A stretch of 64,000 nucleotides of DNA. Origin: Methanothrix sp. GTDB lineage: Archaea; Halobacteriota; Methanosarcinia; Methanotrichales; Methanotrichaceae. Numbering within the stretch: position 1 is the stretch's first letter; every line of letters starts with the position of its first letter. Below, piece after piece: positions 11,385 to 60,655 of the stretch. The notes under the pieces are model-generated. The model saw only the letters and a program-made list of their open reading frames with translations. It made no database searches and was not told the DNA's origin. The DNA is taken from NCBI GenBank assembly GCA_029907715.1, contig JARYLI010000002.1, positions 186,001 to 250,000 on the forward strand, read 5' to 3'. The position numbers and the translations under genes were made by a program.

Positions 11385-14300
11385 GTGGTGGATGAGGCCG
11401 GAGCCTTGTGTGCCATCGCAGGCTTTCTGGATGGTGATGTTGGGGATCACAGGGTGATTGAGCGGATCGCGCTGGAGGCTGATGGGCCGCTGGCATCGCT
11501 GGCAAGAGCTGTGCAGTCCTCAGATATATCCAGGGCACTGTCACATCTGGATGATCTCGCAGAGCAGTATTCGGCATCCACAGATTGCAGCATCTGGTTC
11601 TCTCTGGGCACAATATCACACCGTCTCGGTTCGCTTGAACGGGCGGTGAGCCATCTCTCAAGAGCTCTGGAGCTCGCATCCGGAGCATATGAGGTCAGAA
11701 TTCTCTCCCGACTCGGGTCGATCTATGCGGATGTTGAGGACTGGGATCGGGCGATCTCTCTATACAGGGATGCTCTCGCGCGGGTGGAGCGCGGGGATCC
11801 GGATCGCGCTGGCATTCTCATAAAACTCTCAAGAGCATGCAGAGAGGCTAGAAGATGGGATGAGGCACTGCAGTGCAGCTCTGATGCGATAGATCTCCTC
11901 AGATCATCAGGAGACAGAAGCTCCGTCGCGAGGGCGATCATGGAGGAGGCCGAGATCCGGAGGGAGATGGGGGATTTATCATCTGCTGAGGAGCTCTACA
12001 GGACGTGCCTTGAGGAGTTCGAGCGGCTGGGGGAGATTCCGTTCGTGTGCAGGTCTCTGGAGATGCTGGGTCGCATATCTCAGCTCAGAGGCGAATCCAG
12101 GAGAGCTGAGGACCTTTTCGATATGGCCATGCACAGGTACGAGCACTGCCATGAGATAGAGGGAGCATCGAGGACTGCACTTCTTCTGGGAGATCTGCAT
12201 GCGATCGAGGGGAGGTTTTCCAGCGCGGAGGAGTGCTACCTGAAGGCGCTGGAGGGCTTTCGAGAGGTATCAGATCGCGAGAGCGTGGCGAACACACTGC
12301 TGAGCCTCGCCAGGCTCTACGGGTCCATGGGCGAGTGGAGGGGAGCTGTCGAGCGCTATCGCGAGGCTCTTGATATCCTGCAGTCTGAGCAGTCACAGGA
12401 TCTCGCAAGGGCTCTAAGAGAGATGGGGACTGCATGCTACAGATTGAGAGATTATGAGATGGCGCAGAATTATTTCATGAAGTCTCTCGAGCTCAGCGAG
12501 GCCCTCGGGGAGAGGGACGGCATGGCTGCATCGCACACAGGCATGGGTCACATGCTCTCAGACCTTGGCGATTGGGATGGCGCTGTAGAGCACTATGAGA
12601 GGGGTGCCGAGCTCCTGCGTGAGATGGGAGATCTCAGGGGTGCTGCAGCATGCACATCAAACATAGCGAGCGTGTACCAGATGATGGGGGATCTGGAGAA
12701 GGCGCTGGATATCTATCACGATGCTCTTCAGATCCAGGAGCGGCTTGGCGATATGCAGGGCGCATCGAAGACCCTGAACAACATGGGTCTCGTCTACCAG
12801 CACATGGGCGAGATCGAGGCTGCTGAGAGAAACTACATGCGCTGCCTGGAGCTGAAGGAGCAGCTCGGGGATGTCCACGGCGCTGCGAACACGCACATCA
12901 ACCTCGCGACCCTTTACGAGATCCAGAGGCGCTGGGATGATGCCATAGCCCATTATCAGGATGCTCTGGAGACGTTCGAGGCGATCGGCGATCGCAGGGG
13001 CATGGCTGCGGTTATGAACAACCTCGGAAATGTGTACGAGGAGAAGGGGGACATCCTGCAGGCGATAAAGAGCTACAGGATGAGCATGGAGCTCGATGGT
13101 GGAGATGCAAGCATCGCGAAGATATCATGGAATCTTGGGGGGCTCTACCAGAGGATCGGGGATGCTGAGAGCGCGGAGAAGTGCTACAGGGCCAGCCTGG
13201 AAGCCTTCCAGAGCATTGGAGATGAGAGGGGTGCGGCCTATGCTCTCATGGGCCTCGGCAGCATCGCGCTGGAGCGTGGCCTTTGGGACGATGCGCTGGA
13301 CTGTTTTAAGAGGTGTGTCGATCTCAGGCTTGATACGCCAGAGGCCCTGAGGGTGCTTGGAAGCATCGCATCTGTTTATGAGAGAAAGGGCATGTGGCAG
13401 GAGGCCCTTGCAGAGTACAGGAAGGTGCTTGAGAGGTTCAGGGGGATGGGAGATTCTCTCGGTGTTGCAGCGGTTCTGAGCACAATCGGCAACCTCCTGG
13501 CGGAGCAGGGGCACTGGGATGATGCCCTTGAGCACTACAGTGAGAGCCTTGAGATATTCGAGAGGCTCGGCGACGGCTACAGCACAGCGGTCACCACAAA
13601 CAACATGGCAAATGTGCTTTACAGGCGGGGAGACTGGGACAGGGCTCTGAGCATGTACACAAAAGCGATGGAGCACTTCCAGCGGGTTGGGGACATGCAG
13701 AGCCATGGAGCCACGCTGAGCAACGTCGCGAGCATACACTACAGGAGGGGCGAGTGGGAGAGGGCGATAGAGCTCTACCACAAAAGCCTCGAGATATTCG
13801 AGGGGCTCGACGATTCGAGGGCATCCTCGATGGTGCTCAACAACCTCGGGCTCCTCTACCACAGGAGGGGCGAGTGGTCGCTGGCAGTGGACCACTTCAG
13901 GCTGGCAGTGGAGTACGCGATGCGTGCCGGAGACCGTGAGGCTGCCACGGAGTTCCAGGCCAACATAGACATGGTGAGATCATGCCGCGGAGAGGCATCT
14001 GTCGACATCGAGGGGTATCTCAAAAAGCTGGAGGAGCTCGAGAAGGCAGAGGACGTTGAGGCGGCTGCAGAGATGCACGGGATACTGGCAAATGCATATG
14101 CTGACATCTTCCGCTGGGAAGAGGCGCTGGATCATTACCAGAAGAGCCTGGAGCTCTTCGAGCGCACCGGCGACAGGTACAGCGCTGCGGAGACGATGTT
14201 CAACATGGCTCTGATCTACAGGGATCGGGGTGAGTGGTCGATCGCCGAGGACCTCCTCTCGAGGAGCATGAGCGAGTTCAGAGCGCTGAAGGCATCGCCA

Positions 14301-15191
14301 TGCTACAGCATGTCGCGCCTCAACCTGGGGCTTTTGAAGGAGATCAGAGGAGCAGATCCTGAGGAGGATATACTATCCGCGATCACCACGTTTGAGAGCA
14401 TAGGCGCGATTCCGGATCTCTGCGAGGCATATCTCGCGATGGCCAGGGTGAAGCTGAACAGAGGGGAGATGAGCGAGGCGCGCTTCTACCTCTCTGAGGC
14501 TGAGACGCTCATACTGAAGACAGGTTACGATTCCATGAGGATCAGGCTTTACATCGAGTGGGGCGATTTTTATCTATCACAAACGCCCGCCGAGGCCAGG
14601 AGCTGCTACAGCAAGGCCCTTGCGCTTGCTAGAAAGATGGGGCTCACCAGGGATGAGGGTGCAGCGCTTCGGAGCCTCGGTGCTGCGTCTCTGAACGCCG
14701 GAGATTATGATGATGCAGAGGAGCACCTCCAGAAAGCCCTCGAGCTCTTCAAATCCATCAACTCCATGTACGATCTCCTCTCCACATATGCGCTTATTGC
14801 GACGCTGTACTTCAACAGAAAGGATCACGCCAGGGCGGAGGAGACAGCTCTGCTCCTTGAGAGACAGGCCAGGAGGCTCGGCTACAGGGATCTGCAGGTC
14901 AAGGCGCTGGAGGTGATGGCTGGCTGTGAGCTGGCGACCTCAAGGACAGATGCAGCTGTGAGCACCTACCTGGAGGCGCTTAACATAGCGCAGTCGGATG
15001 GGGTATCGAAGAGGCTGCTATCAGAGCTGACCAGGAACATAGTCAGCAGCCTCCAGGAGATACTTAGGGAGAGGGCGAATCTCTCTGATATGTCTGCAAT
15101 AAAAACGGTCGAGTGCCTGCTCGAGGCGCTCCGTGCGGGTCTGACGTGCAGGGTGGATTTCGCAGACGATATCGTGCTCGGAGGCGCATAG
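11385..15191 (+). CDS. giant tetratricopeptide-repeat protein (1268 aa)
   Basis: Almost the whole protein is an array of TPRs of ~40-residue spacing with the pattern NNLGLVYQHMGE / WDDALEHYSESLEIFERLGD, i.e. the longer-repeat LGN/Rapsyn-like type. There are roughly two dozen units by eye, with more diverged ones at both ends (from ~residue 40, and after residue 870). No signal peptide, membrane span or enzymatic domain is seen, so it should be a cytoplasmic scaffold for protein-protein contacts. GTG 11385 follows a good AAAGGAGG site. A TATA-like element lies at ~11268, implying a leader of about 90 nt. Partner proteins cannot be deduced from the neighbours. Confidence 0.85.
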   Translation: MVDEAGALCAIAGFLDGDVGDHRVIERIALEADGPLASLARAVQSSDISRALSHLDDLAEQYSASTDCSIWFSLGTISHRLGSLERAVSHLSRALELASGAYEVRILSRLGSIYADVEDWDRAISLYRDALARVERGDPDRAGILIKLSRACREARRWDEALQCSSDAIDLLRSSGDRSSVARAIMEEAEIRREMGDLSSAEELYRTCLEEFERLGEIPFVCRSLEMLGRISQLRGESRRAEDLFDMAMHRYEHCHEIEGASRTALLLGDLHAIEGRFSSAEECYLKALEGFREVSDRESVANTLLSLARLYGSMGEWRGAVERYREALDILQSEQSQDLARALREMGTACYRLRDYEMAQNYFMKSLELSEALGERDGMAASHTGMGHMLSDLGDWDGAVEHYERGAELLREMGDLRGAAACTSNIASVYQMMGDLEKALDIYHDALQIQERLGDMQGASKTLNNMGLVYQHMGEIEAAERNYMRCLELKEQLGDVHGAANTHINLATLYEIQRRWDDAIAHYQDALETFEAIGDRRGMAAVMNNLGNVYEEKGDILQAIKSYRMSMELDGGDASIAKISWNLGGLYQRIGDAESAEKCYRASLEAFQSIGDERGAAYALMGLGSIALERGLWDDALDCFKRCVDLRLDTPEALRVLGSIASVYERKGMWQEALAEYRKVLERFRGMGDSLGVAAVLSTIGNLLAEQGHWDDALEHYSESLEIFERLGDGYSTAVTTNNMANVLYRRGDWDRALSMYTKAMEHFQRVGDMQSHGATLSNVASIHYRRGEWERAIELYHKSLEIFEGLDDSRASSMVLNNLGLLYHRRGEWSLAVDHFRLAVEYAMRAGDREAATEFQANIDMVRSCRGEASVDIEGYLKKLEELEKAEDVEAAAEMHGILANAYADIFRWEEALDHYQKSLELFERTGDRYSAAETMFNMALIYRDRGEWSIAEDLLSRSMSEFRALKASPCYSMSRLNLGLLKEIRGADPEEDILSAITTFESIGAIPDLCEAYLAMARVKLNRGEMSEARFYLSEAETLILKTGYDSMRIRLYIEWGDFYLSQTPAEARSCYSKALALARKMGLTRDEGAALRSLGAASLNAGDYDDAEEHLQKALELFKSINSMYDLLSTYALIATLYFNRKDHARAEETALLLERQARRLGYRDLQVKALEVMAGCELATSRTDAAVSTYLEALNIAQSDGVSKRLLSELTRNIVSSLQEILRERANLSDMSAIKTVECLLEALRAGLTCRVDFADDIVLGGA

Positions 15192-28436: not shown

Positions 28437-28472
28437 CCGCCCAGAGCGTCTGGGTGAGCTCATCCTGCGTTT

Positions 28473-28596
28473 CGCTCTTATGTATTCAGCAACTTGAAGG
28501 ACATGCAGGCCGGTTGCTGAATGCACTCATTTCCCCATCACGAGCGCATAGCTTGAATGGTACCTCTTCGGACAAGTTATCAGATGGATAAGAGCG
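28473..28596 (+). repeat. dispersed 124-nt element, copy A
   Basis: Begins CGCTCTTATGTATTCAGCAA and ends TATCAGATGGATAAGAGCG, giving imperfect terminal inverted repeats of ~20 nt (outer 9 perfect). An internal perfect 9-bp inverted repeat, TTCAGCAAC (28485-28493) and GTTGCTGAA (28513-28521), could form a hairpin. Copies B-E are at 37232, 42589, 42977 and 60253. Confidence 0.9.
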
Positions 28597-28833
28597 TTGC
28601 GTTTTATCCCATTGAATGCGATCTGTCAGTCTGTTTCTCAGGCGTATTCACATCGCTGAAGCCCTCACTGGACCGCAATGTATGCGGGGCTCGGCATGAA
28701 TGGCAGACATCGGGGCGCAAACTCCTGAGGCGGGGGTGGTCGCCAGTTCGATCGATCAACTGGCCGATGAGCTGCGATCCCAGCGATTCCCGTTACTGTT
28801 TATCTCGAAGTCCCGCATCCGGATGGCAATTTC

Positions 28834-29404: not shown

Positions 29405-29524
29405 TCATGGTAGCATGAGAATCTGGACCGTGCCGGCAAAGTGGATACACCGGCGGAGACCGTGTGGAATAATGAATCATGGGAGCATGAGAATCTGGAC
29501 CGTGCCGGCAAAGAGGATGTCACC
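29405..29524 (+). repeat. ~47-bp direct repeat pair before shikimate kinase
   Basis: TCATGG-(T/G)-AGCATGAGAATC and onward repeats at 29405-29451 and 29477-29524; the core of 30 nt (29412-29441 and 29484-29513) is identical. Copy 2 ends exactly at the start codon and supplies the GAGGATGTCACC leader; copy 1 has GTGGATACACC in its place and no ATG. Confidence 0.9.
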
Positions 29525-36616: not shown

Positions 36617-37380
36617 ACATCCTTTAGATGTAAGAGTTAATCTACTTGGAATTATTTATATTTTTTGGTAACTTTCTTAAGTCACGGTTATATATTCTAA
36701 CAAAGATATCAAATGAATCTAACCGCATGCCGGTAATTAAATCTGATGGATAATAAATGCACTGGTCGTATGACAGTGCAGAGTCTCCCAAAAATGATCC
36801 AGGTCTCGACACCAGACATCGTATACTATCATAATATAATATTCAAAACTGAATAGCAAAGCTAACTCTGTTTGTTGAGAGAAACCCTTCGCGCAGCTAA
36901 AAGCCGCAAACCTGTGGAGGTAATGCTGTCAGTTACCCTTCAGTGCTACCCATCCATCGTTGCACTTTGTGCTCATGGGGTATAAACTTTCCGAAAATGA
37001 TGATGAACACCGCAGGTGGTCTACCTTTGTTGAGTTGATCCGATGGGGTTGGCTCCCTGAATGTGTTTATTTTGAAAGATATCGACATCGAAATCGATAT
37101 CCAGTGGTCTGTTAGTTTTTTGACGTCTCATTGTTTGGTTGATGGCTATGAATCGCCTGCAGTTATTTCTTTTGCGCTTATCCACACATCACAGGTAGAT
37201 TACCACACCGTAAGAGCACAGAGAATCCGCACGCTCTTATCCATATGATAACTTACCCATAGAAGTGCTGGTTCTGCTATGCATCCCTGGTGAATGAATA
37301 AGTGCGTTCAGCAATCACATTGTACGACCCACAAGTTGCCAAGCACATAAGAGCGAATACGCATGCTGTCTGTTTAGTAA
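36617..37380. other. long A/T-rich noncoding region with repeat B
   Basis: No gene supported over ~760 bp. The first ~150 bp are markedly A/T-rich and likely hold the promoter of the secreted-protein genes. A perfect 8-bp inverted repeat GATATCGA (37078-37085) / TCGATATC (37094-37101) lies in the middle. Repeat copy B is at 37232-37355. Some short ORFs here have no ribosome-binding site. Confidence 0.6.
37232..37355 (-). repeat. dispersed 124-nt element, copy B
   Basis: Same length and ends as copy A but on the opposite strand: CGCTCTTATCCATATGATAA at the left and CATAAGAGCG at the right. The interior is more diverged, and the internal hairpin is weaker (TTGGCAAC / GATTGCTGAAC). Lies 25 bp past the 3' end of tRNA-Thr. 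Confidence 0.85.
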
Positions 37381-37475
37381 AGCCGCCGATGGGATTCGAA
37401 CCCATGAACTGCTGATATCCCGGAGCCTGAGGCTCATACGAATCAGCCGCTCTAACCGGGCTAAGCCACGGCGGC
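37381..37475 (-). tRNA. tRNA-Thr(CGU) with a 20-nt intron
   Basis: Minus strand. Acceptor GCCGCCG/CGGCGGC, D-arm GCTT/GAGC, T-arm ATGGG-TTCGAAT-CCCAT, discriminator U. The anticodon stem GCTGA pairs with TCAGC, leaving TTCGTA + 20 nt + A in the loop; removing the 20 nt after position 37 gives a 7-nt loop with anticodon CGT. The intron site is canonical. Confidence 0.87.
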
Positions 37476-37874
37476 ACAGGATGGTGTTGAGGAAGATCCT
37501 GATTTAAGCGTTGCGATCGTGAGAATGACTGCTTACATCACAATGTGCTTCCCGGACCACATACTCATCCGGATGCCAGTGTATTTCAGATGCATGCGGC
37601 CTGTTGGGGTCATGTGGCGTGTCAGCCGTCAGACAGCTCGTTCAGTAATTCGAGCCAGTGACCATGGCCCGGCTTATAGTATTCCGCATAAGTTACTATA
37701 ATATAGAATATCACATAAAATCGTCTATGAAGTATGACATATCCAGTAGCTTTTAAATGGGTTTACATGGAGTGACGCAAAGAACTATAATCTCTGCAGA
37801 CCACGCCGCAGACCGGGAGCTCTGCCAATTCAGGCGGTTGTCATTCATCTGGGACATACGAAGCGAGGATGGAT
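37476..37874. other. noncoding gap with second repeat family
   Basis: No gene supported. Contains copy 1 of the ~131-bp repeat (37676-37806). The rest shows no nameable feature. Confidence 0.55.
37676..37806 (+). repeat. second dispersed repeat (~131 nt), copy 1
   Basis: Starts ATAGTATTCCGCATAAGTT, passes CACATAAAATCGTCTATGAA and CTTTTAAATGGGTTTACATG, and ends near GACCACGCC. The reverse complement of 42840-42973 aligns along the whole length with the first 19 bases identical and no large gap. The CTTTTAAATGG segment resembles a TATA box, so a small transcript is possible. Confidence 0.8.
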
Positions 37875-42467: not shown

Positions 42468-42588
42468 GGGCTCATCCCGGTGATTCGGCAGATCGATAAT
42501 CTCACAGGAAGATGTAAAGTCGGTTGACGTTGGTTTGGTCTGCCAGAGCTCGCCTATCCGGCTGATTCAACCACTGAGTTAAAGTGAA

Positions 42589-42712: not shown

Positions 42713-42839
42713 AAAGTGAAAATTGAAGTCCTGTAGTGCGATCGTGTTCGGGTTGGGAGCGATGCAAAGGCGGAGCGCATGAGGACGCTCCCATGTTCTG
42801 ATCAATCTTCTCCGTTGGCCCACTTGTGCCCGGATGAAT

Positions 42840-42973
42840 GGTGTGGTCGTCGAACTTGCTTTGTAGTCCTTTGCATCACTTCATGTACATCCATTTAAAA
42901 TCTAGTAAATATGTCGCACTTCATAGATTATTTTATGTAACACGTAATTATATCAACTTATGCGGAATACTAT
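42840..42973 (-). repeat. second dispersed repeat, copy 2
   Basis: Reverse complement aligns to 37676-37806 over its full length, sharing the initial ATAGTATTCCGCATAAGTT and the TTTTAAATGG segment. It ends three bases before element copy D. Confidence 0.8.
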
Positions 42974-42976
42974 GGT

Positions 42977-43098
42977 CGCTCTTGTTTGTTTGGCAACTTG
43001 GAGGCTGTTCAGTGAGTGCTGTAATCACTCAATCATCTGCCATGAACGCATAGAAGGACCGTTGCCTCTTCGGGCAGTTCATCAGATGGATAAGAGCG
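42977..43098 (+). repeat. dispersed 124-nt element, copy D (diverged, 122 nt)
   Basis: Starts CGCTCTTGTTTGTTTGGCAA and ends CATCAGATGGATAAGAGCG. The right end (CTCTTCGGGCAG onward) is close to copies A and C; the middle is diverged and the internal hairpin is lost (it has AGTGAGTGCTGTAATCACT, another small palindrome). Confidence 0.8.
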
Positions 43099-43270
43099 CT
43101 TAGATCTGGCAAACAGCATCGGAGCTTACAGCTGAGTATTCCTATTAACCCCCTTTTCACGATTTGCCCATGTCGCTAAGTAATTGTATAGATGATTTTT
43201 TATATCAAAAACTGGTTCTTAGGAATTCTCAGCCATATCGCATGGCATCGCAGGCCCGGATGCTGTGGTG

Positions 43271-60234: not shown

Positions 60235-60655
60235 AGATCGGGAAAATGCATCTGCTCTTATGCATCCAGCAACTTGAAGAACTGCAAGCTCATTGCTGAA
60301 TGCACTCATACTCTCGCCAGGCATTCGACGCAGTCGAAGATAAGTCGAAACGAGCGTGTGGCGTGGCTTTTCTTAGGGCAGGTTATCAGATGGATAAGAG
60401 CAAATGCATCCACTCCAGTCAGCATATATCGCATGGTCGCGATGCTATGTGGTGTGAGACCTGTGCTCATGCCATTGGTCATCGGTTAAGGATTTCCATG
60501 AAAGATATTATGATGAATATTTGACAATTTACTACTATCGCACCTGTGCCACTTGATGAGATCGATATAAATCATCATAACGCTTAATTTCAAGGCATCA
60601 CCCATGTAAAAATTATTGATCCATTCCTGCGTCAGACAGCCTTAACCGATGACAT
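60235..60655. other. noncoding gap with repeat copy E
   Basis: About 420 bp with no supported gene. Repeat copy E is at 60253-60402; the part 60480-60650 is A/T-rich and likely includes the promoter of the metallo-hydrolase gene (ATATAAATCATC near 60566). Confidence 0.6.
60253..60402 (+). repeat. dispersed element, copy E (150 nt, with ~26-nt insertion)
   Basis: Starts TGCTCTTATGCATCCAGCAA and ends GTTATCAGATGGATAAGAGC. In the middle it carries extra sequence including a perfect 6-bp hairpin TTCGAC-GCA-GTCGAA (60324-60338). Confidence 0.85.

Follow-up and report, generated by a model that had tools for sequence, protein, structure and literature searches.

The dispersed 124-nt element found in five copies in the window (the whole 64,000-nt stretch of host contig analysed here, from the 2.0-Mb Methanothrix genome G000) is almost certainly a non-autonomous DNA transposon of the MITE type. 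It has no coding capacity and no transposase gene, and its assignment rests on 8-bp target-site duplications (TSDs), a feature absent from the earlier sequence-only reading, as well as on empty sites and nested insertions. The family is recently mobile, new and restricted to one genus, and belongs to a kind of element that is already known, MITEs having been described in bacteria and Sulfolobus. All five copies (A to E) are present with the coordinates and ends that had been reported for them, and three have exactly 124 nt. The features in the window are as follows:

28465 to 28472, no strand: left TSD of copy A, CTGCGTTT; the sister genome G005 has a single copy, CCGCGTTT
28473 to 28596, minus strand: MITE copy A, 124 nt; absent at the orthologous site of G005
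28597 to 28604, no strand: right TSD of copy A, TTGCGTTT, 7/8
28700 to 28707, no strand: empty target site, ATGGCAGA; G005 has its own MITE copy there, flanked by ATGGGAGA twice
37224 to 37231, no strand: left TSD of copy B, AATCCGCA
37232 to 37355, plus strand: MITE copy B, 124 nt; 25 nt from the 3' end of a tRNA gene
37356 to 37363, no strand: right TSD of copy B, AATACGCA, 7/8
37381 to 37475, minus strand: tRNA gene beside copy B (Rfam search)
42581 to 42588, no strand: left TSD of copy C, AAAGTGAA
42589 to 42712, plus strand: MITE copy C, 124 nt; up to 98% identity to other genomic copies
42713 to 42720, no strand: right TSD of copy C, AAAGTGAA, 8/8
42977 to 43098, minus strand: MITE copy D, 122 nt, diverged, TSD no longer present; adjoins another small repeat
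60245 to 60252, no strand: left TSD of copy E, AATGCATC
60253 to 60402, minus strand: MITE copy E, 150 nt; ends TGCTCTTAT; internal insert TTTCGACTTATCTTCGACTGCGTCGAA
60403 to 60410, no strand: right TSD of copy E, AATGCATC, 8/8

Copy A is drawn on the minus strand because its CCAT end lies on the right, and the insert of copy E also occurs in 171-175-nt copies elsewhere. The five copies align along their entire length with a mean column identity of 70%, and a separate repeat finder picks up A, B, C and D as long repeats (A-C over 129 nt, 89% complementary), showing that their resemblance extends beyond the ends. The terminal inverted repeats (TIRs) are imperfect and about 24 nt long, running from the tip CGCTCTTAT to an inner block AACTTG; the 9-bp tip is near-invariant across 71 copies, and the end sequence of the MITE is CGCTCTTATNNATNNRNNAACTTG.

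The target-site duplication is exactly 8 bp long and is decisive for the assignment as a MITE. Based on 40 rows of flanks (copies A and D each entering twice) compared at k from 4 to 12, with shuffled right flanks as control, flank identity at k=8 amounts to 72% versus 30% in the shuffles, and lies at background for k of 4-7 and 9-12. Perfect 8-bp TSDs are found in 19 of these 40 rows (A and D again counted twice). A survey of TSDs and lengths in a 464-kb sample of the host genome showed that, of the 39 copies with a length of 110-135 nt, 27 agree at 7 or more of the 8 flanking positions, for which the chance is approximately 4e-4 per copy; duplications also led to eight more copies that differ in length, from 109 to 455 nt. 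Among the five window copies, the TSDs are perfect for C and E, 7/8 for A and B, and lacking only in D. At positions 1-2 and 7-8 the duplicated sites are rich in A/T, a symmetric preference.

Comparison with sister genomes reveals that the family has moved. Copy A is missing in G005, which reads ...CATCCCGCGTTTTCTCCC... where the window has ...CATCCTGCGTTT, copy A and TTGCGTTTTATCCC..., and G005 carries a copy of its own approximately 100 bp away, between two ATGGGAGA, at a position where the window site ATGGCAGA is empty and single. Related species thus differ in their insertions at this one detailed site, and the element has therefore jumped after the species split. Five sister genomes lack copies C and D in the orthologous gap, which is too diverged for an exact empty site to be recognised. 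Moreover, the element inserts into other mobile DNA: one host copy (L017) interrupts an IS256 element with an 8-bp TSD that is single in the paralogue, which is uninterrupted at that place, the transposase gene of that paralogue is itself split by a second MITE with TAAGGGTA on both sides, and one MITE is nested in another with TTGGACTT duplications.

Further copies are numerous throughout the host genome. With the 24-nt TIR pattern and 3 or fewer mismatches allowed, we detected 365 ends in the whole genome, versus 0 for the reversed pattern used as control, and hence estimate about 180 copies; an independent count of 56 ends in a 320-kb sample of host contig C1 translates to about 175 copies per genome. 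The genome-wide number is thus of the order of 175-180 copies, or approximately 1% of the host genome. With copy C as query, at least 40 places in the host genome were matched at E<1e-37 (40 of 200 candidates scored), and pairwise identity in a 71-copy alignment ranges from 61 to 100% (mean 81%). Sampled copies measure 109, 119-125, 147-201, 396 or 455 nt, with a mode at 123-125 nt. The sequence-only reading had taken the conserved length for a sign of constraint on the whole unit. Yet this length is the mode of a range of 109-455 nt, and it recurs through descent of the copies from a single source; since variants above and below this length have transposed as well, leaving perfect TSDs, a constraint on the whole unit is not shown. 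The same reading had placed all copies in noncoding gaps, which stands as a strong intergenic preference and not as a rule: 12 of 47 sampled copies lie at least half inside a called ORF, versus 83% of random 124-mers (ORFs mechanically called, 86% of the sample being coding). The genes neighbouring sampled copies are found in all orientations and in mixed contexts. Selection against insertion into genes is the simplest explanation for this intergenic bias, and suffices to account for it.

Other functional readings were weighed against the MITE assignment. Single copies fold better than shuffles (z of -1.6 to -3.7), as would be expected if the element were a structured RNA family with the internal hairpin TTCAGCAAC/GTTGCTGAA as its functional part, but terminal inverted repeats give such scores in any inverted-repeat element. 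Among the 71 copies aligned for both covariation and consensus folding, the hairpin is mostly invariant, its columns pair as expected under independence and compensatory changes are absent, whereas the RNAalifold consensus reaches only -2.9 kcal/mol. An Rfam search yielded no match to the element, with only tRNAs found in the window, and long variants with other interiors transposed too, making an RNA family extremely unlikely. The dispersed, intergenic, palindromic and numerous copies also recall REP/BIME-like palindromes moved by a RAYT (Y1) transposase. Movement of this type involves units of 20-40 nt and leaves no target duplication, however, and is contradicted by a unit of 124 nt with 8-bp TSDs, such that we consider this origin next to impossible. 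Finally, the host might have adopted the MITE as a regulatory or chromosome-structuring element and kept the copies for their function, in line with their strong intergenic placement and with the position of one window copy (B) 25 nt from a tRNA gene. Such a use is very unlikely in view of the variation from about 5 to 308 ends among the species of the genus, of sites that are not common to species where checked, and of the mixed gene contexts. The MITE is probably without host function.

Which transposase moves the MITE is less clear-cut, as the transposase with matching ends that the sequence-only reading proposed to look for was found neither in the complete sister genome G002 nor in the sampled host genome. 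We searched for a same-end autonomous element in G002 (1,879,471 bp, which we take to be Methanothrix thermoacetophila (Methanosaeta thermophila) PT; about 90 ends listed), in approximately 580 kb of the host genome and in the surroundings of the IS5- and IS256-type transposases of the genus, and found none, 23 small host contigs (C33-C55, 0.5-2.4 kb), in which collapsed insertion sequences could lie, being outside this search. A PF01609 search of the six genomes of the genus, with the same 23 contigs outside it, likewise returned no transposase copy with its own CGCTCTTAT ends.

One locus has the appearance of a parent. A 1269-bp stretch of host contig C12 (G000:C12:3598-4866; L033 1168-2436) starts and stops with the MITE termini and contains a broken DDE_Tnp_1/DUF772 transposase (NF033581, IS5_4-type), as if the MITE were an internal-deletion derivative of this IS5-family element. 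Homologues of the C12 element elsewhere, however, stop at the inner ends GAGGATTCC.../...GGAATCCTC, which lie inward of the MITE termini by approximately 70 and 56 nt, and once the insert is removed the outer parts of the stretch correspond to one ordinary MITE copy. We therefore rejected the C12 element as the autonomous parent, an origin that is most improbable, because an insertion sequence landed inside a MITE copy: it is physically bounded by MITE ends, but has its own GAGGATTCC ends and is a passenger. The locus cautions that MITE ends around an insertion sequence need not mark the parent of the MITE. An element of approximately 97 nt at 43134-43230 of the window has ends (GAGTATTCCTA/GAGAATTCCTA) similar to those of the C12 IS5_4-type element, and is possibly a MITE of that insertion sequence.

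Several other candidates were discarded: the IS256 elements have their own ends (GGCAGTGTGCCGAAATTGCTGTAA), unlike those of the MITE, and the IS5-type, IS1634-like and truncated IS elements of G002 also differ in their ends. Two separate MITEs and a composite account for the end pairs of 3.2 kb and 638 bp seen in G002, and a pattern lead in the genome G019 (CGCTATTTTGTATGGG...) proved to be a different repeat of approximately 165 nt. A different dispersed element of approximately 165 nt (GGCTCCTCGCTATTT...GCGAAGAGCC) is found in G019 (L064-L068) and G015 (L070), which represent other genera of the taxonomic family.

The ISH1 group of the IS5 family is listed in the ISfinder table with -GC tips and an 8-bp duplication, and the MITE, with its YGC tips and 8-bp TSD, agrees with both. 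We thus infer, with weaker confidence, an ISH1-like member of the IS5 family as the candidate source transposase, since the ends and duplication fit this group and since TGCT ends and 8-bp duplications also characterise a multicopy IS5-family element of a sister genome. This G002 element (988 bp, nine copies, TIR TGCTGTGTTGGATAA, NF033579 at 250.6 bits) resembles the MITE in the (C/T)GCT starts of its ends and in its 8-bp duplications, whereas the inverted repeats diverge after the first four bases, and it is therefore not established as the parent. A transposase gene similar to that of the 988-bp element was not seen in G000. Seven copies compared at G002 loci L110-L116 share an identical 450-bp stretch that encodes no more of an IS5-type transposase than its C-terminal half, and a near-identical piece occurs both where G000 contig C6 begins and in G005. 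Most relatives of an associated transposase belong to MAGs that bear the names Methanosaeta, Methanothrix or Methanotrichaceae.

In the proposed mechanism, a DDE transposase supplied in trans would bind the inverted repeats through the CGCTCTTAT tip and the inner AACTTG block, excise or copy the element, and insert it into a target cut with an 8-bp stagger, the repair of which would give rise to the TSD. A broader scenario, in which the Methanothrix MITE is cross-mobilised by an unrelated transposase with no same-end partner in the genus, and several independent MITE families are rewriting the intergenic regions of the genus, seems unlikely.

Other small repeats lie close to the copies. One of them, 174 nt long and located 76 nt from copy E (60479-60652 of the window), has inverted ends that match perfectly over 12 bp (TCATCGGTTAAG), and a related repeat is found inside long MITE copies (L084 880-1233, L035 566-1020); it is probably a second MITE family, with no duplication identified. 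The repeat adjoining copy D is approximately 110 nt long (TATAGT...ACTATA; 42864-42972, and again at 37676-37787 of the window), has dozens of copies in G004 and G005, and is flanked by TA in 9 of 11 sampled copies. Like the 124-nt MITE, it is MITE-like and dispersed in the same genus, but it differs in its TA flanks and its ends, and resembles Correia/IS630-type MITEs. In G002, MITE copies and other features recur at an exact spacing of 6885 bp (C1 1641513, 1648398 and 1655283), a tandem triplication of approximately 6.9 kb. The same genome harbours a 255-nt MITE variant (C1 411534-411788, L073) with 7/8 duplications that has kept only the ends; its interior consists of a 71-nt tandem repeat, and thus of new cargo between the same MITE ends. 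Elsewhere in the window, 66-nt direct repeats at 11969-14173, mostly spaced at multiples of 120 nt, lie in the ORF 11385-15191, which probably encodes a TPR-like repeat protein, and a 42-nt direct repeat (29405-29446 and 29477-29518, 95% identical) occurs twice, 72 nt apart.

The family is found in all six genomes of the genus that were compared, with end counts of 308, 232, 90, 83, 28 and 5 when as many as 2 mismatches are allowed. Among 394 genomes of the phylum surveyed at up to 1 mismatch, only these six, all of the same genus, are positive, and no ends were detected in the 388 others, which span 135 other genera; nor did viral contigs yield an exact TIR match. We found no description of such a family for Methanothrix in the open papers searched. 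It is similar to the MITEs of Coxiella (PMC5896051) and to MITEAba12 (PMC6382973) in being short and transposase-free with inverted terminal repeats, and it shares with these bacterial and archaeal MITEs a fixed-length TSD, many copies and an intergenic bias. Unlike them, the Methanothrix family is confined to one genus, and no sequence relation to them came to light.

The element accounts for part of the intergenic repeat content, and could act as a strain and lineage marker. The source transposase of the MITE is a concrete and answerable question, in a genus that is a major biogenic source of methane.
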